NCBI RefSeq assembly: GCF_040712315.1 | Contig: NC_134013.1 | Span: 82,590,001-82,654,000, forward strand | Length of the DNA: 64,000 nucleotides | Direction: 5' to 3' | Origin: Castanea sativa | Lineage: Eukaryota > Streptophyta > Magnoliopsida > Fagales > Fagaceae | Position numbers and translations under genes: made by a program | Notes under the pieces: generated by a model | Database searches by the model: none | What the model was told of the DNA's origin: nothing | What the model saw: only the letters and a program-made list of their open reading frames with translations | Shown: in pieces, positions 2,368-21,731 of the stretch | Layout: each line of letters begins with the position of its first letter | Position numbering within the stretch: position 1 is the stretch's first letter

Positions 2368-2406
2368 GTAATGGTCTAATTGGCCTAGTAGAAGGGCTGG
2401 CTCTAC

Positions 2407-3878
2407 ATGCAACTAACCTACTAAAAGAGATTGATTTGGTGGTAAAATTAGAAGTAGGAAACTAACTGTAAGGACAAAGACAAAAAGGAAAACTAATTAA
2501 ACACAAAGTGAAGTTACTCTGAGGTCATGGTTTTTTTTTTTTTTTTTTTTTTCCCGAATGTGAATTTTCTCTGAGTGATTACATAGTTGTATGCTAGTTG
2601 ATAACAATAATCCTCCATGACCACTTATTGCATGCATGCATGGTGCGTGACGTGTGCATATATATAATTTTGGAGGTGGATTTAAGAATAGGAGAAGATC
2701 ACAAGAAAAAGGATGGTTGGTGGCTCGATCTTTCTTGCAAAGAAAGAGTAAGCCCTCTTCATGAGATCGATCCTCAGCTAAGGACAATGATGGTTAAATT
2801 GATGCTCTGGTTTAGGTATTCTAAACAATGAACAAGACATCTCTCAAGTTTTTTCACATATCTCTTCCCTAGGGGTGAAATACATTTTTATATGTGCTAA
2901 ATTGATCTATTCCTTACCTAAAAACATCACCTGGAACAAAGTTTTTTAGAGGATATATTTGCCTTTTCAACATATGAATATTACAGTAAATCGCTTCCTA
3001 CCTTTCTATTTGATACAACATGTACAACAAATTACATGGGAACAATTGCCCCCCCTCCCTTCCCCCCCCCCCCCCCCCCCCTCCCTTCTTCCCCACACGC
3101 AAAAAATAAAAAAGGTACAACGAAAACTCTTGATTTTGCATCCCTAAGATGACCTCTTAAATTTAGCTCCTACAGCAAAGAAACATTTGCGGCAAATATT
3201 TCATCTGCGTCTATCTTCCCCTCAAAAAATCAGAGAATGTAATGGTATAAATTTTCATTATGGATAATTTCAGCCAACAGCCTTTAATCCAAAACCAGCC
3301 TGTTATGCTATGATTTTAATCACTATTTCAGGACAATAGTCCCAGCAGTACTTGCAGGAAACAGCATGGTTTGGAGAAGAATAGAGATAATTTAATTAAA
3401 TTTTGTTTGATATATGGTTGTTTTAGTCAAGTGATAAGTTTTAATTGGTCCTATCAAGTTGTAACAATTTAGCACCTCTTACTTTAAAATATTGGAATAG
3501 ATGGTGCTGAAATCTTAAAAAATCCAAAAAGCCTAGGACTAGAACTCTGTAGCTTATTCTAATAACAATTATATTACAAATATTTTCATTGGTGAAATAT
3601 TCCATTTGTAAAAAAATTTCAATAAAAAATTTTCAGATGTTTGATATAACAAGTAAAATATTTTAAGCAAACCTCCAAAATTAATAGCTCAACCACCTGA
3701 GCCGTTGGTGCCGGAGATCCCGTGACTGGACCGCGCCTGTTTAAAGCTTTACCTAAAACTACAGTTGGAAGTCTTTCGAGAAATCACTGTTTATATTGGC
3801 AGCGCCCAAACTTTTTGTTTTCATTTACCATTGGACAGTGCACAGAGCACTTGACATGGGTTTGTTGGTCCCTTTTGC
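2407..3878. repeat. Segmental direct repeat, copy A
   Basis: This block aligns, with scattered substitutions and small indels, to 14371-15989 (copy B). Both start at ATGCAACTAACCTAC and both run to GTCCCTTTTGC. Shared landmarks are a T-tract after AAGTTACTCTGAGGTCA, the TGGAGGTGGATTTAAGAATAGG block and the GAAACAGCATGG block. A shorter part (about 2958-3370) also matches copy C at 21148-21561, next to the last RPOT3 exon. A and B lie on either side of the receptor-kinase gene in the same orientation, about 12 kb apart. No coding frame is conserved between copies, so I treat it as duplicated non-coding DNA. A run of C at 3061-3083 is a copy-specific expansion. Confidence 0.8.
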
Positions 3879-9320: not shown

Positions 9321-12300
9321 TCAAACACCATCAATGTTAGGAGGCTCTTCTTTAATTAGCAGTGAGGAAGGATTAGAGAGATAATCCTTCAACCGTCCCA
9401 TTTCACGGGCTACATCCAGCATGGTTGGTCTAGTTGAAGGTGTGAACTGTGTGCACATAAGACCAAGCTCAATCATTTCTAGAATCACATCTCTCCATAT
9501 TTTGGTGTATTCCTTTGGCATGACTGACGGGGTCCACCTATCAAGAGCATGTTCAACTATGGGATCCATCCTGTAGGGGAAGTGACTCTTAACCCATTCA
9601 TGCAAGCTTGAGCCTTCATCAATAAGAACTTTTGTTGGGCGCCTTCCCGTTACAATTTCCAATAAAAGGACCCCAAAACTATACACATCACCCTTAGGGG
9701 AAGCGCTTCTACCCAATCCATATTCTGCATTTGGATAAATTGATGAAAGAGCACAATCAGTATGATAGTGAAATATTTATATTTATTATGCTGTTAAGGT
9801 GACACAAATCATAATTGTTATCATGTCAATTTGTAAATAATTTTTTTTAGTAAAACAGTAATAGCATTAGCAGTTTCCTTAGTTTATTCTATCTTAGTGT
9901 GATGCATCATTTCCTTAGGAGACTTTCGGTGTAATGGAAAATGGGTACCAAGACATGTAGTATGTTGTAATCATTGCTAGCATTGTGAACAAATAATCTA
10001 AGAGTATAGTGAATACTATGCTTAAACCAATAAGGTCATAACTTATTAAATTACGTTGTAATTATTGCTAGCATTGTGAACAAATAATCTATTAGTATAG
10101 TGAATACTATGCCTAAACCAATAAGGTCCTAACTCATTAAATTATTATTCTTATCATTTTACTTGACTTTACAGAGAACTCTATTTATGCTTTTTCTGAG
10201 AAGTATGGGGCTATTCAATGTCTAAGAAGGAAAACCAACTGACTAATTGATTTTGACAAATCATTTGGTCTGCAGAATGTTCAACATAATTTTTTTGCAC
10301 AAACTAGGCAAGAAGTGTGAACTGAATGATATAATAAAGATTTGTGACTTGCTCATAACCTTTTATATAGCAAATATGTAAGGGCAACCATATTGTTACA
10401 TAAACACTATGAAGAATTCTAACTACAAAACTAACACATAATCACATAAGGAAAATATAATTATATTTAATTCTAGGCTTCTAGCTTTGGCAGAAAATTA
10501 CTTACCAGGAGCTATGTAGCCAACAGACCCGCATAATAAGCCATTTGTTGAGTAGATGGAGATTGTTTCCTTCACATTAGCACTCTCATCACCCCCTTTA
10601 ACCAGCCTTGCAATTCCAAAATCAGTTACCAAAGCTGTCAAGTCATCATCAAGAAGAATGTTGCTTGGTTTTAGATCACAGTGTACAACTTTAACTGGAG
10701 AATGATGGTGCAAGTAGGCCACTCCTTCAGCAACGTCACAGCATATGCTCACTAGCTGTATCAAATCTAGCCCACGTTTCAATCCATGGCTTGGGTAGAG
10801 ATGCCTCTCCAAGCTTCCGTTCGACATCAGTGGAAGAACAAGAGCCTTAAAGTCTGGCCTACTGCAAATTGTGATTATCCTTATTAGATTCCTGTGCCTT
10901 GCCCTCTTTAGGACTTGGCATTCTCTCTTAAAGCTCCATGGACTTTCTCTAGCCGTCTTTGTATCTAGAACCTTCACAGCAATTCTTGTATTATCACAAA
11001 GAACTCCCTTATAGACATGACCAAATAGGCCTGAACCAATTAGGCTTGAAGCACCAAACCCGCCAGTGGCTTCATTGAGTTGCCCGTATGAGATTCTAGG
11101 GTGCTTGAGGTCCAAGTCTCCTCCATTGAATATTTCCAATTGTGATTGGATTCTTGACCTTTGTACAAGGCAGTACCCAAATATGCACAAAATAAGAATT
11201 GAAAATAATGAGAGAAGAACCGACAAAATAAGCATAAGATGAGAATGTCTATTTGAGCACTTTGGCATGCCTTCTATTGAGCCACAAAGGCCATCATTTC
11301 CAAGGAAAGAGCTTATGGTGAGCGATGAAAACGCTCCCTCGTTAGGTATTTTTCCAGAGATTTTGTTGAAAGAGAAGTTCACATGCTTGAGAGTAGAGGA
11401 CATCTGCAAAGATTGCGGTATCTCTCCAATCAATTGGTTTGAAGACACATCAAGTGATCGAAGATAAGGCAATTGCCCTACTGAAAATGGAAGGGGGCCT
11501 TCTAAAAAATTATGTGAAAGGTTGAGACTTTCTAGTGAAATGCAGCTTTTGAGTTGTGTTGGGATTGTGCCAATGAGATTGTTATAGGATAAATCTATAG
11601 CTAGCACCATGTCCATTTTACTAAGCTCTAATGGTAAAGGCCCATATAAGTGATTGCTAGACAAATTCAAGTATAACTTCAAGTTCCTCAACCCTGCAAC
11701 TTCACTAGGAATCACCCCAGAAATCTTATTGTGGGAGAGGTCTAAAATTTCTAAATTGACACATTGACCTAAACTTGGTGGTATTGTTCCTGAGAGCTGG
11801 TTTTGATAAAGCATGAGTCTTCTTAACTGGGGAAGGTTTGCAAAGCTATCCGGAATTGAACCCGATAGCCTGTTTCTCGATAAATCTAGAAGACCTAGAT
11901 GGGGAATGTTGCCAAGAGCTGGCGGAATCTCACCCAAGAGTGAATTATTAGACAAGTAAACCCTCTCTAGCTTTCCCATTTGACATAGTTCAGGTGGGAT
12001 TGAATCATTCAATAAGTTACTCGACAAGTTTAGGAGGGTAAGATTCACAAGGTTTGAAATGTGAGGTGGAATAAATCCATGGATAAGATTCTCACTAAGA
12101 ATAATCTTTACAAGATTGGTAGAAAGATCACCAATAATGGGAGGTATTTCCCCACCAAGGTTATTTCCCGCCAATTTGAGTTCTTTGAGGTCAGAACAAT
12201 TTACTAAGGAAGCAAAGAAAGGTTTTAGGTTGTTGTTACCACCATGGCTAACAAAGTCATTATAGGACAAAAAGAGTATATGTAACTTTGGCATTTCACG

Positions 12301-13029
12301 TACAATCTCTGACGGTAACTCCCCAGTTAACATATTAGACCCCAAGTCTAGCCATTTAAGTCGTGTGGAATTTGAAAGGGCTCGTGGTAAATGTCCCACT
12401 AGCCTATTCGACCAAAGCAAAAGAAATTGCAACTCTTTAAGCCCACATTCATTCTTTAAGGGGATTTCTCCACTTAAAGAATTGTTAGAAAGATCTATGT
12501 ACTGCAAGGATAAAGACCCATTACAGAAAAGTGATTCTGGGATTTCACCTTGAAGCTTGTTACTTCCCAAATCAAGATATACCATTTTTTGAAGAAATCC
12601 CAAGTGATAGGGAATTTTCCCTTCAAGAAAGTTCCATGACAAGCTAAGTTGTTTAAGCTGAGTGAGAGAACCTAACTCTTTTGGAATAGGACCTTCAAAG
12701 GAGTTCATTGACAAATCAAGGACAGCCAAGGAAGAAAGATTGGCTAGTGATGGGGAAATAGTGCCACTTAGCCATGTTGCATTGAGAATAAGCTCTACGA
12801 CACTGTCACGTGCATTGTTGCATCTCACTCTTGCCCAGTTGCAAACGTGAACATCCGAAGAGTTCCAGTTCTCGAGGACGTTTCCAGGGTCTGAAACAAT
12901 CTCTGACATGAAAGAAAGCAGTGCTACTTTGTCATTCATAAGCTGAGAATTTTGCTCACCAAAGACACCAAACAAAACAACAATGACCAAATATAGGAAA
13001 TTGTACATGGAAAATTTACAAAAACCCAT
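9321..13029 (-). CDS. LRR receptor-like serine/threonine kinase, non-RD (At2g24130-like)
   Basis: Two exons, 13029-10506 and 9724-9321, join across a 781-bp intron. The donor follows CTCCTG (GTAAG) and the acceptor is TGCAG, which restores the APE motif (GYIAPEYGLG). The joined product is 975 residues. An N-terminal signal peptide (~1-24) is followed by an LRR N-cap with a CNW...VRC pair and about twenty leucine-rich repeats of the IPxxLGxLxxL type. A transmembrane helix lies at ~598-622. The kinase domain (~660-960) has a glycine loop at GSGLFGHV (~665), the AVK lysine (~686), a catalytic loop HCDLKPSN (~783) and DFG (~803). Cysteine replaces arginine before the catalytic aspartate. That is the non-RD class, which includes FLS2, EFR and Xa21 and is linked to immune sensing. 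The ligand is unknown. The closest family member I recall is At2g24130. No lesion is visible. Confidence 0.93.
9965..10147. repeat. 91-bp tandem duplication in the kinase intron
   Basis: Two adjacent copies of a ~91-bp unit, starting at TTGTAATCATTGCTAGC and TTGTAATTATTGCTAGC, differ at only a few positions. They lie inside the single intron of the receptor-kinase gene and do not touch the splice sites. Confidence 0.9.
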
Positions 13030-13164
13030 TGTGGTATTGATTTATAAGGAGAGGGAAAGCTGTATGTGTGTCCAATATTAAGAAGGAATTGTAATGCTAC
13101 AAAAAATCTGAACCCTTTGGGAACTCTAATATTTTGTGCTTCACTGCCGTTGAAGGAGGAGATG

Positions 13165-13631: not shown

Positions 13632-13824
13632 TGAGAAATGATATGTCCACAATATTTTCACAATATTTTCACAACAAATCCTAAGTGGCAGGTTATTACT
13701 AGTTGTTATTGTTGGGACAAAAAAGTAATCTTAGTGTTAGGTTCAAATTTAAACCAATAACAACTAACCACCTGTGATTTGTTGTGAAAATATTTTAAAA
13801 ATGTTGTGGACGTAGCATCTCTCA
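13632..13824. mobile_element. MITE, 193 bp, with terminal inverted repeats
   Basis: The left end (TGAGAAATGATATGTCCACAA) and the right end (TTGTGGACGTAGCATCTCTCA) are inverted copies. The inner TTTTCACAACAAATC and GATTTGTTGTGAAAAT also pair. The element is non-coding. The same family occurs at 19090-19243 and 19743-19918, truncated at 17251-17390, and in degraded form near 39850-39960. The superfamily is not certain from sequence alone. Confidence 0.8.
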
Positions 13825-14370
13825 AAAACTATACTGCTGCATCTTGTATTTTACCCTGAAAATAATGAAATCACTACTTGGATATAGGCAAATTACCAAA
13901 TCAAGTAATTTCTTGTGTCACGTGATTGTCTTATGTGTATTATTTTTCGGTATGTTTTTACCTTTCACATATATGGAAAATCGTTTATATTCCCAAAAGG
14001 AATATGTGCAATTGAGTGTATCTCTATATTTAACAGATCATTAATAGCAGACAATATTGTGCTTTAATTTGTGAAACATGTGGGTTTCCTTTTTCTTTTT
14101 TTTTAATTGAAGAATAGAAGAACATGGGTATCTTTGTGAGTGGTGAGTTTGGACTAATTTAGTGGATGATGTGCTGTTTAGGAAGAGAAATGTAGCATAA
14201 TAGGCATGCTTAGGGACGGTGATTTGGCATTAATTGGGGGTATTGGTTTTGGCACATTTGTCGTCTGAGAGTGATGTGTTTTAGCACTACGTTGATTTCA
14301 GTTCAAAAGATGATCCATACCTGATTTCATTTGGGTATCATGCATTGCACTCACAAAGATGTAGCCCACC

Positions 14371-15989
14371 ATGCAACTAACCTACTGAAAGAGATTGATG
14401 TCGTGGTAAAATTAGAAGTAAAAAACTAACTATAAGGACAAAAGACAAAAGGGAAAACTAATTAAACACAAAGTGAAGTTACTCTGAGGTCAAAGTTTTT
14501 TTTTTTTTTTTTTACCTGAATGTTAATATTTTGTGAGTGATTACATAGTTGTTTGCTAGTTAATAACAATTATCCTCCATGACCCCTTATTGCATGCATG
14601 GTGCGTGTGCATATATATAATTTTGGAGGTGGATTTAAGAATAGGAGAAGATCACAAGAAAAGAGATGGTTGGTGGCTCAATCTTTCTTGCAAAGAAAGA
14701 GAAAGCCCTTATCATGAGATTGATCATCAGCTAAGGACACTCTGATGGTTAAATTGATGCTTTGGTTTAGGTATTCTAAACAATGAACAAGACATCTCTC
14801 AAGATTTTTTCACATATCTCTTCCCTAGGGGTGAAACACCTTCTTATATCTACTAAATTTATCTATTTCCTACCTAAAAACATCACCTGAAACTGAGCTT
14901 TTTAGAGTATATGTTTGCCTTTTCAACATATGAATAAATCCCTTCCTGCCTTTCTATTTGATACAATATGTGTACAACAAATTACATGGGAACAATTGTT
15001 CCCCCACTTCTTCCCCACACACAAAAAATAAAAAAGGTACAAAGAACCTTCAAATTTTGCATCCCTAAAACTTATTACTTGACTAAAACAACCCCACACA
15101 CAAAAAATAAAAAATAAAAAAGGTACAAAGAAAACTCTTGATTTTGCATCCCTGAGATGACCTCTAAAAATTAGCTCCTACAGCAAAGAAACATTTGCTG
15201 CAAATATTTCATCTGCGTCTATCTTTCCCTCAAAAAATCAACCAATGTAGTGGTATAAATTTTCATTATGGAAAATTTCAGCCAACAGCCTCCTGAGCAA
15301 GCTGCATGCCATAGCCTTCAATCCAAAACCAGCCTGTTATGCTATGATTTTTATCACTATATATATCAGGACAAGAGTCCCAGCAGTACTTGCAGGAAAC
15401 AGCATGGATCCAATTTGGAGAAGAATAGAGATAATTTAATTAAATTTTGTTTGATATTTGGTTGTTTTAGTCAAGTTATAAGTTTTAATTTGTCCAATCA
15501 AGTTGTAAAAATTTTGCACCTCTTACTTTAAAATATTGGTGTAAAGAAATCAGAAATTTCAAAAGAACATTTTAAAAGAAATCCATATTTTCATTTTTAT
15601 ATTATATTTTTAAATTGGAATAGATGGTGATGAAATCTTAAAAAATCCAAAAGGCCTAGGACTAGAACTCCGCAGCTTGACATTCTAATAACAATTATAT
15701 TATGTTTCAGTTGTTTGGAAGTAAGATATTTTCGTACATAAAATCTTATACTTATAAAAAAAAATTTAATAAAAATTTTCAAGTGTTTAATATAGCAAAT
15801 AAAATTTTTTAAGCAAACCTTCAAAATTAATAGCTCAACCACTGAAGCTGTTTAAAGCTTTGCCTTAAACTACGGTTGGAAGTCTTTTGAGAAATCACTG
15901 TTTATATTGGCAGTGCCCAAACTCTTTGTTTTAATTTACCATTGGACGGTGCACAGACCACTTGACATGGGTTTATTGGTCCCTTTTGC
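14371..15989. repeat. Segmental direct repeat, copy B
   Basis: This is the partner of copy A (2407-3878), in the same orientation. It carries small insertions that A lacks, such as the extra ~55 bp near 15045-15110. The match stops sharply after CCTTTTGC at 15989. There copy A continues with ordinary sequence, while copy B passes into a GGGCCGGCCCTG motif typical of a transposon end. Part of it (about 14918-15420) also matches copy C. I see no conserved coding frame. Confidence 0.8.
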
Positions 15990-17096
15990 CTAGGGCCGGC
16001 CCTGAGTGCACAAAGTCCAATCCACATATATGATATATTTTTTTCAGCAAAAAAAAAAAAATATATATACATATATATTTAGTTAGATATGTTTTCCGTT
16101 TGAAGGATTGTGGTATTTTATTTTAATGTTTAAACGTTAAACGTTAAACCCGTGAACTTGCGAAGTCTCCTAAATCAACATGTATCCTATTTCAATAAGA
16201 ATTTTGATGATAACGTGAGGTTCAAGAAATAGATAGTCATCACATCAGATTTTCTTATTACAATTGGATTAGGAGATACTGAGGCGGTAAAGATTATTAT
16301 ATATAATATATATAACATAGTTTGGTGTGGTTTTGCAAAGAGAGCCAAAACACAGCCAAGCCAAGGAGAGAGAGAACTGCGCTTGTGAAAAAGAAATAAA
16401 GAAAGTTTTTTTTTTTTTTTTTTTAACTGTGACGGGAATATCTCAGGTAAATTATATAATATTACTGTATTTAATGTGAATTTTAAAAAATTTTAAATCT
16501 ATGATGTTTAGTTTATGATAATTGCTCCAAGTCACACATCAATTGACTGTTGATAGAAACAGTCAACGACAACAACAATATTGATAGAAACTTTGGGTGA
16601 TAATATTTTGGAGGTTTTTGGAGGATTGATTTCTTAATTCATACACTGAAACAAGACTAGATTGAAACCCAATTTCAAGCCAACATTTTTTAAAAGTCAG
16701 CTGTAGCTAGAGTTTATAGTTGTTTTAAGCTTATTAGTCGATTGTTATATACTTATATGTAAAAATGTCTTTCTTTTTTCTAATTAAAAATAAATACAAT
16801 CAAACAGATGGTATAGATATCTTAAAATAGATACAGCCATACAGGTTAATATTCACAACAACGATCTTTATATGCATGACATTGCACATGCTAGAACAGC
16901 TGGATTTCATAGGTGATTTTCTTTTTCTCAAGAAAAAAAAAAGGATTTTTTTTTTTTTAATGAGTGAGCGATGTCTAGCTATTTTTCTATTACTTGTTCT
17001 TCATACATACATGATATGGTATGCATTTGCATCTCGAGATTTTGGAATTATTTTTATGACTAATATTTGGCAAAGCAGGAGCAGCCATCAATTATA
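15990..17096. other. Transposon-derived edge and region upstream of the F-box fragment
   Basis: The first bases (TAGGGCCGGCCCTGAG) look like the terminal inverted repeat of the hAT group whose ends read CAGGGCCGGCCCTG. The sequence of copy A does not resume on the other side within view. The rest is AT-rich, with T- and A-tracts at 16033-16080, 16407-16424 and 16940-16960. GAGAGAGAG and AAAGAAATAAAG tracts around 16360-16410 may be leader sequence of the former F-box gene, but this is inference. Confidence 0.45.
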
Positions 17097-17234
17097 ATGG
17101 AGCACAAAAGAAGAAATTTGAGCAATATGAATGATAGAGTTGGTGCCACAGATCGAATCTCAGAATTGCCCGAAGTCATCATTCATCATATTTTGTCTTT
17201 CCTTTCTACAAAAGGATTGAAAAGCAATTATTGA
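17097..17234 (+). pseudogene. Truncated F-box gene fragment
   Basis: An ATG at 17097 opens a 45-codon frame ending in TGA at 17232-17234. Residues ~19-40 (DRISELPEVIIHHILSFLST) are the start of an F-box as found in plant F-box/LRR/FBD proteins, which are substrate adaptors of SCF ubiquitin ligases. The motif is cut after about half the F-box, where the usual continuation (a VLSKRW-type segment) would follow. Immediately downstream comes a short ATTCATCATTCATCATT repeat, and then the left arm of the long palindrome at 17251. No remainder of the F-box gene is found beyond the palindrome. It looks like a gene start broken by the rearrangement that made the palindrome. Confidence 0.75.
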
Positions 17235-17506
17235 TTCATCATTCATCATTCAACAAATTATAGGTTATTATTGATTCTAAATTAAACCTATCATTGAAAT
17301 TACTTTTTTGCGTACCAATACCAACTTACCACATATGATTTTTTTTGAAAATCTTGTAAAAATTGTTGTAAACATAGCATTTCTCTAATTAAATCAATTT
17401 AAAAAATTAAAAAATAAAGAAAAAAAATTCCCAACTTAATTGTGGAAGATAGGTCCTCATTCTCTTGAATTTAGTATTGTTTAATTGTTTTGGCGGGAAC
17501 TACAAC

Positions 17507-17514
17507 TATAAAAA
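17507..17514 (+). promoter_or_regulatory. TATA box in the left palindrome arm
   Basis: TATAAAAA in the context CAACTATAAAAACACATT, 125 bp upstream of the ATG at 17632. The right arm holds the mirrored motif at the same distance from its own ATG. Confidence 0.6.
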
Positions 17515-17631
17515 CACATTTTAGTTACAAACTTACAATTTCACTATACCATAACCAAAACAAATAAAAGAGATTAGTGTTTGGGAGTCTTGCTAAAGAA
17601 GAAAGAGAACAACGAGTAGGAAGAGAGAATA

Positions 17632-17956
17632 ATGTCGTTGGCACAAGATGGATGCCGTGTTTACCAAATGTGTTTACCAAATGATTGTGAAGGCTAAAAT
17701 GACCGGCATTATTAAGCTTCGTCCAAATCTTGATAATGGTTGGCGATCACCATTTCTTGATTTTCCCATTAAGGTACTTAACTTTCTTAATTAGTTTCTT
17801 AGTTAGTGTTTACTTATTCAGCACTTAATTCACTTTTCTTTTTCTTTTTCCATTAAGCTCATGTGTGATTATTGTGGAGATGAATCATCATTCCTGTATG
17901 TAAGTCAAAATGACAGAGTTAGGCATGAAGGTAAAGTCTACAACTTCTTGTATGAG
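17632..17956 (+). pseudogene. Captured gene start, left arm (CZIB/UPF0587-like)
   Basis: Exon 1 is 17632-17773 and exon 2 is 17858-17956. They are separated by an 84-bp intron with GTACTTAAC donor and CCATTAAG acceptor, and a further donor (GTAACT) follows at 17957. Exon 2 reads LMCDYCGDESSFLYVSQ, then a run ending NFLYE. Exon 1, compared with the other arm, contains a 13-bp tandem duplication (GTGTTTACCAAAT twice, ~17657-17682) that breaks its frame. The layout of a RLRPNLD-like stretch, then CxxC, then VSxN resembles the N-terminal half of the CXXC zinc-binding UPF0587 (C1orf123/CZIB) family. The C-terminal half with the second CxxC pair is missing. Family assignment is tentative. Confidence 0.55.
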
Positions 17957-18525
17957 GTAACTATTGCCCTTTTCATTTGGTGGGCTTCGTAATTTCTTTA
18001 GTAGTTGCTTTTCTTAGGTTTTTTTTTTTTTTTTCATTTCTTTCGTAATTGCTTTTCAATCCTTTTAATTTGATTTTTTTTTTTTTTTTACCAACAATGT
18101 CTAGATTGCAAGTTAAGAACTGCCCTAGGTACATTGATTAGATTGGATGGCAGACCCTTAACAAAAAAATATCAACACGACTCTCATATATCTGGGCATT
18201 GATGGGATGTCACCCATCCATGGATTACCACTATTTTATTTGCAATGAATTCGCAAAAAAAATAGTGGTAATCCATGGATGGGTGACATCCCATCAATGC
18301 CCAGATATATGAGAGGCATGTTGATATTTTTTGTTTAGGGCCTGCCATCCAATCTAATCAGTGTACTCAGGGCAGTTCTTAACTTGAAATCTGGACACGT
18401 AAAAAAAAAAACATCAAATTAAAAGGATTGAAAAGCAATTACGAAAAAAAAAAAAAAAAAAAACCTAAGAAAAGCAACTACTAAAGAAATAACGAAGCCC
18501 ATCAAATGAAAAGGGCAATAGTTAC

Positions 18526-18842
18526 CTCATACAAGAAGTTGTAGACTCTACCTTCATGCCTAACCTAACTCCGTCATTTTGACTTACATACAAGAATGGT
18601 GATTTATCTCCACAATAATCACACATAAGCTTAATGGAAAATGAAAAAGAAAAGTGAATTAAGTGCTGAATAAGTAAACCCTAACTAAGAAACTAATTAA
18701 GAAAGTTAAGTACCTTAATGGGAAAATCAAGAAATGGTGATTGCCAACCATTATCAAGATTTGGACGAAGCCTAATAATGCCAGTCATTTTAGCCTTCAC
18801 AATCATTCGGTAAACACGGCATCCATCTTGGGTCAGAGACAT
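18526..18842 (-). pseudogene. Captured gene start, right arm (CZIB/UPF0587-like)
   Basis: On the minus strand exon 1 is 18842-18714 (43 intact codons, starting MSLTQDGCRVYRMIVKAKM) and exon 2 is 18629-18526. Exon 2 begins LMCDYCGDKSPFLYVSQ. It then carries a 5-bp duplication (GTTAG twice, near 18564-18573) that shifts the frame relative to the left arm. So each arm is broken at a different place: exon 1 is intact here, and exon 2 is intact in the left arm. Exon 1 to exon 2 joins in phase 0. The likely parent is a small zinc-binding UPF0587-type gene elsewhere in the genome. Confidence 0.55.
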
Positions 18843-18959
18843 TGTTCCCTCTTCCTACTCGTTGTTCTCTTTCTTCTTTAGCAAGACTCCCAAACACTAA
18901 TCTCTTTTATTTGTTTTGGTTATGGTATAGTGAAATTGCAAGTTTGTAACTAAAATGTG

Positions 18960-18967
18960 TTTTTATA
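18960..18967 (-). promoter_or_regulatory. TATA box in the right palindrome arm
   Basis: The reverse complement is TATAAAAA, the mirror of 17507-17514. It lies 125 bp upstream of the minus-strand ATG at 18842 and points towards the loop. Confidence 0.6.
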
Positions 18968-19089
18968 GTTGTAGTTCCCGCCAAAACAATTAAACAATAC
19001 TAAATTCAGAAGAATGAGGACCTAACTTCCACAATTAAGTTGAGAATTTTTTTTCTTTATTTTTTAATTTATTTAAAACCAATTTAATT

Positions 19090-19243
19090 AGAGAAATGCC
19101 ATGTTTACAACAATTTTACAAGATTTTCACAAAAAATCATATATGGTAAGTTGTTATTGGTAGGCAAAAAAAGTAATTGTAATGATAGGTTTAATTTAGA
19201 ACCTATAATTTGTTGTGAAAATGTTGTAGACATAACACTTCTC
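19090..19243. mobile_element. MITE at the outer end of the right palindrome arm
   Basis: Left end GAGAAATGCCATGTTTACAAC and right end GTAGACATAACACTTCTC form imperfect inverted termini. The interior TTTTCACAAAAAATC pairs with ATTTGTTGTGAAAAT. It belongs to the same family as 13632-13824. The left palindrome arm carries the same MITE without its last ~28 bp; at that point (17251) the F-box fragment side begins. The right copy is therefore complete and the left one truncated. Confidence 0.75.
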
Positions 19244-19564
19244 ATTTAATTAATCACATTTTTTATATATAAAAATAAATAAAGAGAAATAAGTTAGAAT
19301 ATAACTATAATTGTATTGTATCATTTTTATAAATGTATCCAATTAGTTCGTATATACTATGTAATCAAGACATAAGAGTTACTTCACGCAAACTACCTTT
19401 TCCATCCTCACACTTTTCTCTTCAAACAAACTCATAAGTTTTTTACCCCTCCACTTTTCCATTCCTCAACCAAACACAAATGAGGGAAACTAAAATATCT
19501 TCTATCCCCTTACTTTTTTATCATCTATCCATTTTCTATTCTCCCACTCCAGAAGTGAAAGTGA

Positions 19565-20203
19565 CAGTGTCGGCTCTATGCTATAAGCAATTGATGCAAT
19601 CGCTTAAGGCTCCAAGTAAAAAAAATGCCCCCAAAAATTTAACCAATAGGATTATTTCTTCTATTGTAATAGTATTAATTAAACCCAAATATTAGCCAAT
19701 AAATAAAAAAATATTTTTTTATCAAATGAAAAAAAAAAAAAATTTCTACATTCCACAAGATTTTTCACAACACTTTTACAACAAATCCTAAGTAGTAAGT
19801 TGTTACAGGCTGTTATTGTTGCCAAAAAATAATTTTAGTGGTAAGTTCAAATTAAAATTAGTAATAATTTAACACCTAAGATTTGTTGTGAAAAATATTG
19901 TAAATATAGCACTTCTCAAAAAACAAAAGCAATACACAAAAAAATTTACAACATTTTTCACAATAGTTGAATTAGCAAACTTTTACTAGTTGTCATTTAA
20001 ATTCATCATTAACATCACTCTATTACTTACCACCTATTAATCTGCCACATCAACATATGTGAAACATTTTGTCAAATTTTGTGTGTTTATACTCTTTGTT
20101 TAAAAAAAAAAATTCTACATGGTTCATCTTAATTGTAATAATTTTGCATTTAAAATAAAATAATTAATTTTCACTTTAGGCCCCAAATGCTTCGGGCCGC
20201 CCC
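19565..20203. mobile_element. Non-autonomous hAT-like element with a nested MITE
   Basis: The left end CAGTGTCGGCTCT is followed by GCTTAAGGCTCCAAGT and a GCCCCCAAAA motif. The right end reads CTTTAGGCCCCAAATGCTTCGGGCCGCCCC, which in reverse complement repeats the same order of motifs. This pattern is common to a group of plant hAT elements with GGCCGGCCC-type ends. It has no coding capacity. A copy of the local MITE family sits inside it at about 19743-19918, so the MITE came later. The exact ends and target duplication could not be settled by eye. Confidence 0.6.
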
Positions 20204-21147
20204 AATCCAAGAACGTCAGTTTCAATTTGGGGGTAGTTGGCTTATTTGGTTGATGGCCAAGAACACCCTCTGGGCTGGCATCTGCTTACTCTACTTAAGT
20301 CATATTTGTTTAATTGGAATTATCAGTCCAACCGTGATACATTTCTACAATACGAATTATATAAAGGTTAGGCTTCTCAAATATGATCAAAATCCCCAGG
20401 GGAAAGAGTTGGAGGGATTGAGCTTGGGTTGAAATCAGGGTGTTGAGTGTGTAGTCACAACAAAGATCCAAACTTTAATCATCATAGGCACACAGTGGGT
20501 TAATGGATGTTGCTCCAAACTAATTGGGAGCTAAAATTAAAACATTTTGATTCAATCCTATTCATCCAAGTGTGATAGCTGATAACCATGAAAATTGCAA
20601 ACACGATTAATTAAAGTTGAGAAAAATATTTATTTGGAAAGTATTTAAAACAAATGAGAACAGAAGAATTGTAGTCCATTAGAGAGAAATTTTAGGTACT
20701 AAGGAGTCGAGCTGTTTTTATGTCATAAACAAACATAAGAATGATGAAACTAAATCAGAGAAGGCTTGGGACTGTCTTTTTTTTAGAGATAATTACAACA
20801 TGTTGCTAATCCCGTAGCTCGAACACTTTCTCCACTAGACCCTCAAGCACTTTGTGCATGGAGAGGTGTCAATTCAACTACAAGGTCTTTGGCGGCTTGA
20901 GACTGTCAAGTATCTATGATTGTAATTATCATTTATATGTGCTACTCTCCAGTCTCAACAGTTCATTTCACAAGAACTTTTGCTCTCTAGAAATCAATCA
21001 GTCAAAAGCTGCATACAAGGCTGAAACATGTACTAAACATCCACAATTTTTCTTCTGCTATTTCGATATTCAGTATGAAAAAGGATTTCACAAAAAAGGG
21101 GGAAAAATCCTTTCAAGTTTATTATCTACCACAGAGATGCACTTGAG
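20204..21147. other. Intergenic DNA between the repeat nest and RPOT3
   Basis: No gene is supported. Frames at 20187-20432 and 20852-21271 lack any recognisable motif and run through repeat boundaries. The distal 3' flank of RPOT3 may begin near its right end. Confidence 0.4.
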
Positions 21148-21561
21148 TTTGCCTTTTCAACATATGAATACTACAGTAAATCCCTTCCTGCCTTTCTATT
21201 TGATACAACTTGTGTACAACAAATTACATGGGAACAATTGTTCCCCCCTTCTTCCCCACAAAAAAAAATAAAAAATAAAAAGGGTACAAAGAAAACTCTT
21301 GATTTTGCATCCCTAAGATGACCTCTTAAAATTAGCTCCTACTGCAAAGAAACGTTTGCGGCAAATATTTCATCTGCGTCTATCTTCCCTCAAAAAATCA
21401 ACCAATGTAGTAGTATAAATTTTCATTATAGAGAATTTCAGCCATCAGCCTCCTGATCAAGCTGCCTTCCATAGCCTTCAATCCAAAACCAGCCTGTTCT
21501 GCTATGATTTTAATCACTATATCAGGACAAGAGTCCTTGCAGGAAACAGCATGGATCAAAT
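21148..21561. repeat. Segmental direct repeat, copy C (RPOT3 3' flank)
   Basis: It matches copies A (2958-3370) and B (14918-15420) from GCCTTTTCAACATATGAATA to GGAAACAGCATGGATCAAAT. It lies 170 bp beyond the RPOT3 stop codon, so it is probably 3' UTR or immediate 3' flank. The homology with A resumes within the last RPOT3 intron (21939-22062). This suggests that A and B descend from a duplicated RPOT3 3' end whose coding exon was lost. Confidence 0.75.
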
Positions 21562-21731
21562 TTTTGTCCACTTGTCAGCCTCTACAGAGGCAACCATGTG
21601 CTGCGCTTTCCCACTCCAATTTCAAGTCCACTTTGGTGGATGAATTTTCTCAGAAAACTCGATGACACTTTTTGCATCAGATATAAAAATGCTTCTACAT
21701 AAGGATATGATTGTTGCTCTTGCATGAAGGA

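Follow-up and report, generated by a model that had tools for sequence, protein, structure and literature searches.

Introduction

New siRNA and miRNA genes have been proposed to arise from hairpin loci, whose own birth is often blurred. In maize, Mu killer carries two inverted partial copies of the mudrA 5′ part, which run about 1.3 kb in and meet at the inversion point, and the authors favour short antisense transcripts over a long hairpin for this locus (excerpts of PMC3440606). In Arabidopsis Cvi-0, PAI4-PAI1 and VIM4-VIM2 are natural rearrangements of host genes into palindromes, with stem-loop RNA described for them (excerpts of PMC13213937), and in soybean the CHS1-3-4 arrangement of the I locus consists of inverted host-gene copies that act as a silencing locus (excerpts of PMC3804491). 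For Castanea, a literature search on small-RNA hairpins from inverted repeats gave one paper, on enod40.

The locus described here resembles these systems. It is a host-gene palindrome as in Arabidopsis and inverted host-gene copies as in soybean; the arms are placed tail to tail, as in PAI4-PAI1 (excerpts of PMC13213937), and each inverted 5′ copy begins with the same terminal promoter end, as in Mu killer, for which a fold-back RNA has also been proposed (excerpts of PMC3440606). The palindrome is real and well preserved and is best read as a fold-back duplication, whose origin is unusually legible; trans-silencing by it is unsupported in this assembly.

Results

Structure of the palindrome

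The window, which means the whole stretch of 64,000 nucleotides that was analysed, is C1:82590001-82654000 of a 716-Mb, 13-contig assembly. Five-digit positions below are counted within the window and eight-digit positions are those of the contig. When the two arms (17251-18243 and 19215-18253) were aligned, 906 of the 955 aligned bases were identical, with 49 substitutions and 10 gap runs, which is an identity of 94.9% over aligned bases and of 91% with gaps counted. The sequence-only reading had described two arms around a 9-nt loop, each with a TATA box, a leader, an ATG, exon 1, an intron, exon 2 and a donor. The coordinates, the loop and every part on this list were borne out, but the list itself was incomplete: each arm adds about 140 nt of exon 3. 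Both arms hold a TATA box, leader, ATG, exon 1, intron 1, exon 2, intron 2 and most of exon 3, and they are long, near-identical inverted gene segments such as an inverted-repeat silencing locus has. The features are as follows:

17251-18243, plus strand: left arm, probably an inverted copy of the gene's 5′ half, with its outer end inside a MITE
18244-18252, 9 nt: loop, with the flanks TTTGC/GCAAA
18253-19215, minus strand: right arm, the gene's 5′ half, likely in its original place and orientation
17507-17514, plus strand: TATA box of the left arm (motif only)
18967-18960, minus strand: TATA box of the right arm (motif only)
17632-17773, plus strand: exon 1 of the left arm, with a 13-bp tandem duplication that makes a frameshift
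17858-17956, plus strand: exon 2 of the left arm, collinear with the relatives
18105-18243, plus strand: most of exon 3 of the left arm, acceptor judged by eye
18714-18842, minus strand: exon 1 of the right arm, collinear with the relatives
18526-18629, minus strand: exon 2 of the right arm, with a 5-bp tandem duplication that makes a frameshift
18257-18397, minus strand: part of exon 3 of the right arm, 48% identical to exon 3 of the relatives, with one stop

Inverted repeats of at least 150 nt and less than 5 kb apart were surveyed in a joined 194-kb stretch and in three additional loci of 9-10 kb. No other inverted repeat reported in the 194-kb stretch came near the palindrome in length or similarity: the others reached at most 379 nt and 86% identity, and the end of the stretch clips one of these. 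In the three additional loci no inverted repeat within these limits was listed.

The ATG lies at 17632 in the left arm and at 18842 in the right arm. The left arm has GT donors at 17774 and 17957, and its exon 3 acceptor AG was placed by eye 2 nt upstream of the codon that is aligned to the first exon-3 codon of the relatives. An intact gene reading was found in neither arm: each has a different frameshift, and the right arm has the stop in exon 3 in addition. Other defects, in the exon 3 acceptor and in the frame near the loop, seem by eye to be common to both arms, which suggests that the gene was already in decay before it was duplicated.

Identity of the duplicated gene

The duplicated gene can weakly be called CZIB-like. 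Against a profile built from 120 CZIB proteins, most of which are named as plant, the arm peptide reached 12.5 bits, while the best of 2000 shuffles scored 7.0, and the exon 1/2 boundary of the arm gene coincides with that of the canonical CZIB gene. A scan of single open reading frames against CZIB gave weak E values of 0.07-0.09, and a Pfam search of the arm sequence gave no match to PF05907 (CZIB/DUF866). Canonical CZIB is therefore only weakly borne out as the identity of the gene, and tandem CZIB-like genes are closer relatives. These lie at C1:82536411 (82536545) and C1:82574276 (82574410); both have the same exon layout and minus-strand orientation, with a plus-strand F-box gene 1.6-1.7 kb away, and show a per-exon identity to the arms of 34-48%. 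Searched against its own genome, the exon 1-2 peptide gave six matches: four fall in the arms, and these two relatives supplied one each, 44% identical to the query.

A peptide composed from the arms had one match in the protein collection, P0001, which is a 78-residue reading of a 572-bp contig. It differs from both arms at several residues and runs through the same intron, so we take P0001 for genomic DNA from a related gene. The zinc-finger DUF3268 (E=0.13), the TRASH domain (E=0.07-0.14) and UnaG (E=1.7) were dropped as noise. The canonical CZIB gene of the assembly gave four exon matches to a protein of Lithocarpus, at 89-100%, and a CZIB-like gene near the window matched a protein of Castanea dentata at 98%, with 52% of the query covered; both point to a source in the Fagaceae, probably Castanea. 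We also noticed a diverged CZIB exon 3 far from the F-box/CZIB-like cluster, at C3:20194415-20194591, which is 41% identical to the Lithocarpus protein and scores 60 bits with the CZIB profile.

Likely original and copied arm

The arms contain a MITE, which is complete on one side only:

19091-19243: complete MITE, partly in the right arm and partly in the flank beyond it, bounded by 9-bp target duplications ATTTAATTA at 19082-19090 and 19244-19252
17251-17385: truncated MITE in the left arm, after which the target duplication is found copied at 17386-17394 as TAATTAAAT

The arms had been read from sequence as captured gene fragments. The right arm instead looks like the broken gene still in its place, and the left arm like a copy of it. 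On the right, the two flanks of the MITE are identical, which makes a perfect 9-bp target duplication, and the element extends past the arm end at 19215, whereas the left arm stops inside the MITE. The continuation on the loop side also fits the right arm better, because right arm and loop continue as ATTGCAAAT, which agrees with exon 3 of the relatives, ATTGCTAAT, at 8/9 bases, while the continuation in the opposite direction, from the left arm, agrees with it at 5/9; the chance of an 8/9 match at any of 13 offsets is 0.005, for a 9-mer that was chosen post hoc. Finally, the right arm has the same strand as the CZIB-like relatives, whose matches elsewhere in the 194-kb cluster, at four places, all lie on the minus strand. 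F-box matches in this cluster are on the plus strand at 5/5 places, but an F-box relative outside it, at 83157126, is on the minus strand.

Two further MITE-like sequences related to the arm MITE occur in the window, at 13633-13823, seemingly with a 9-bp target duplication AAAAACTAT, and at 19752-19908. Another segment recurs at seven places across the F-box cluster, three in the window (2406-3878, 14370-15989 and 21147-21563) and the others at C1:82510881, 82523326, 82554646 and 82560922, with 77-94% identity in BLAST matches. Two long minus-strand open reading frames at 9321-9776 and 10498-13041 look LRR receptor-kinase-like by eye. The right flank of the palindrome (19245-21140) was compared with the 194-kb stretch only.

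Left junction

Outside the left arm, a broken gene and a short filler were found:

17097-17214, plus strand: exon of an F-box gene (5′ part), breaking off at 17214
17210-17250: templated filler, from an exact-match scan and alignment

The F-box-matching bases start at 17020 or 17024 and end at 17214, and the matches to four F-box copies (82527531, 82575930, 82538112 and 83157126) all stop there, at query base 195. The copy at 82527 kb continues past the break point, with a stop about 115 codons in. The Pfam F-box match of the window exon (E=0.0013) has 19 bits, which is below the cut-off of 20.5. In the exact-match scan, 21 nt of the filler (17210-17230) equal 18421-18441 in intron 2 of the arm, and 14 nt (17236-17249) equal 17176-17189 in the F-box exon. 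A third match of 11 nt, 17227-17237 to 17267-17277 at the outer end of the arm, is weak and has a length that chance gives in the same scan. The first join shows an AAAAG overlap at the F-box break. From these letters we infer that the left junction is a repair scar, made of a broken neighbour and filler copied from nearby.

Alternative origins of the palindrome

A sequence that contains the same junction but no hairpin was found 41.7 kb upstream in another F-box unit, at C1:82565442-82565655. There, the F-box break and the filler are followed by the arm's outermost 89 bases, after which F-box sequence resumes; the identity to the window junction is 97.7%. Just upstream of it, the F-box unit has a 175-bp insert (C1:82565267-82565441). 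This junction copy could mean an origin in two steps, in which it arose first and the hairpin arm was made later by homologous copying from the 89-bp MITE piece. The parts that the two loci share would fit such an origin, but the outer 79 aligned bases of the arms differ at about the same rate as the rest (5/79 against 44/876), and the upstream part of the locus resembles the copy at 82527 kb (99.0%) more closely than the window (96.3%). This suggests that the junction copy is a patch copied from the hairpin locus, ending soon after the entry into the palindrome, and the two-step origin appears very unlikely.

The recurrence of the junction also bears on the question of an artefact. Fold-back reads create palindromes, and a fold-back chimera in the assembly or library was therefore considered, but a read-level fold-back artefact would give identical arms, while these arms differ by 5.1% substitutions and have different frameshifts. 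With this divergence and a junction that is found again elsewhere, an artefact was rejected as extremely improbable. Long arms around a short middle are likewise typical of foldback elements, and the arms do contain a MITE with a 9-bp target duplication, so a long-TIR Mutator-like or foldback transposon with captured gene pieces was considered. The sole target duplication, however, belongs to the inner MITE and none flanks the arm ends, the outer ends of the arms are not element ends (the left one is filler in an F-box exon), and several copies of the unit were not found: 17455-17990 is present in the two arms only in the 716-Mb assembly, and in a whole-arm search that was swamped by MITE copies, with 40 of 979 candidates scored, matches outside the arms cover only the MITE end. 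A transposon is for these reasons highly unlikely, and an in-place duplication of the gene by fold-back repair is preferred.

Silencing potential and target search

According to the sequence-only reading, this is a natural trans-silencing locus against the parent gene of the arms. The hairpin would then be transcribed and diced to 21-24-nt siRNAs that repress an intact parent gene, either a paralog or an allele. Several properties speak for this. The anatomy is that of the known cases, with near-identical arms that have their own TATA boxes. An RNA of 17540-18955 (start assumed) folds nearly end to end with -1060 kcal/mol, by which a fold-back transcript from either promoter is plausible, and of the 973 21-mers in the left arm, 300 have a perfect match in the right arm. 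Little change is seen in the promoter-leader block (17466-17631), with 3/166 differences against 46/789 elsewhere (p=0.03 for a block picked post hoc); by permutation, the 160-base stretch with a single mismatch gave p=0.045 and the longest run of identical bases p=0.31. This low divergence could reflect constraint or gene conversion, and hence function. The related sequence P0001 in a public contig may be counted on the same side.

The target search points the other way. As noted above, 17455-17990 has no second copy in its own genome, within the one haplotype of the assembly, and the exon 1-2 relatives stand at 44% identity. The 21-mers of the arms had at least 5 mismatches to the exons of four relatives, except for one poly-T match of 4. 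When the whole relatives were scanned with introns included, the minimum was 1-2 mismatches, against 3-5 for shuffled arms; we tentatively attribute these minima to low-complexity tracts. In both scans the first 200 bases of each scanned arm were left out. By the segment 17455-17990, the exon 1-2 peptide and the 21-mers, no homologous trans target was found elsewhere in this assembly. The sequence-only reading had itself named the lack of a parent gene elsewhere in the genome as evidence against it, and a closely matching parent was indeed not found, within the limits of 17455-17990 and the exon 1-2 peptide in one assembly. The defects that both arms seem to share, which suggest decay before duplication, weigh in the same direction, and trans-silencing of a parent gene is unlikely.

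A special case would be a host gene that by one repair event made itself a Mu-killer-like silencer, a dominant, paramutation-like allele which silences its allelic partner, because in a heterozygous tree the sole close match would be the intact allele. This we consider quite unlikely.

Two further analyses concerned the arms as a small-RNA source. A known MIRNA gene was rejected since all nine Rfam matches were below the gathering score; the best, MIR3444, had 52.1 bits against 80 (E=2.8e-9) and lay across the loop, where hairpin models are expected to score. C/T differences between the arms were found at 6/39 CG, 6/40 CHG and 22/518 CHH sites (Fisher p=0.0006 pooled), which is a weak hint of past methylation of the arms. 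The CG and CHG excess was also present in 4/4 neighbouring paralog pairs (p≤0.036 each, the pairs being not fully independent), and the additional CHG excess of the arms over these pairs was not significant (odds ratio 4.0 against 1.6, p=0.07).

Discussion

With a probability of roughly two in three, the 5′ half of a small CZIB-like gene was duplicated here in place and in inverted orientation by fold-back repair, and the locus is a relic rather than a selected regulator. The history would have started from a tandem array of plus-strand F-box genes and convergent minus-strand CZIB-like genes, in which one break took out the sequence from within an F-box exon to exon 3 of the CZIB-like gene beside it. 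At this break, the right end would then have folded back on a short inverted repeat, TTTGC-9 nt-GCAAA, whose existence before the event rests on the 9-base match described above. Outward copying would have lengthened the folded end by about 960 nt, across the gene and its promoter and on into the MITE, and the new strand would have switched template, leaving the filler, before it was joined to the F-box end. The outcome would be two convergent promoters, so that transcription from either should give a fold-back RNA in which about 700 bases are paired and which would serve Dicer-like enzymes as a substrate. Because no closely matched target was found elsewhere in the assembly, the likeliest activity of such a relic would be silencing itself in cis, or none.

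Unlike in many hairpin loci, the scar of birth is still legible here, with the broken neighbour, the filler, the fold-back point and the copied promoter. It suggests that one repair event can make a hairpin which already has two promoters, and it offers a concrete locus for asking whether siRNAs come from a hairpin when there is no target except perhaps the allele.

Compared with the known silencing loci, the differences lie mainly in origin, size and target. Mu killer stems from a transposon, MuDR, which it silences in trans, while here a host gene is duplicated and no target was found; its centre resisted amplification, while here the centre is a 9-nt loop (excerpts of PMC3440606). For PAI4-PAI1 and VIM4-VIM2, family members are silenced in trans and siRNAs were measured; VIM4-VIM2 is head to head and arose with a 2.7-kb deletion between two homologous genes, whereas here one gene apparently folded on itself (excerpts of PMC13213937). 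The soybean I locus is a 27-kb cluster with CHS7/CHS8 as targets and with siRNAs, against 2 kb and no target found here (excerpts of PMC3804491).

For the proposed mechanism, the closest parallels come from yeast and human. In the excerpts of literature that combine foldback or microhomology repair with plant siRNA loci, no such birth of a hairpin seems to be described. In yeast, a resected end folds back and then joins the other end, and the likeness extends to the short inverted microhomology and the templated copy of the break flank (excerpts of PMC11724301); human fold-back inverted duplications have the folding back in common, and their inverted microhomology measures 2-8 bp (excerpts of PMC3907307). 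Both analogies are partial. Yeast foldback copies are mostly 5-34 bp with a loop of 41 nt (excerpts of PMC11724301), and human copies span megabases with spacers of at least 766 bp (excerpts of PMC3907307), whereas the copy here would be about 960 bp with a 9-nt loop. It would span a promoter and the start of a gene.
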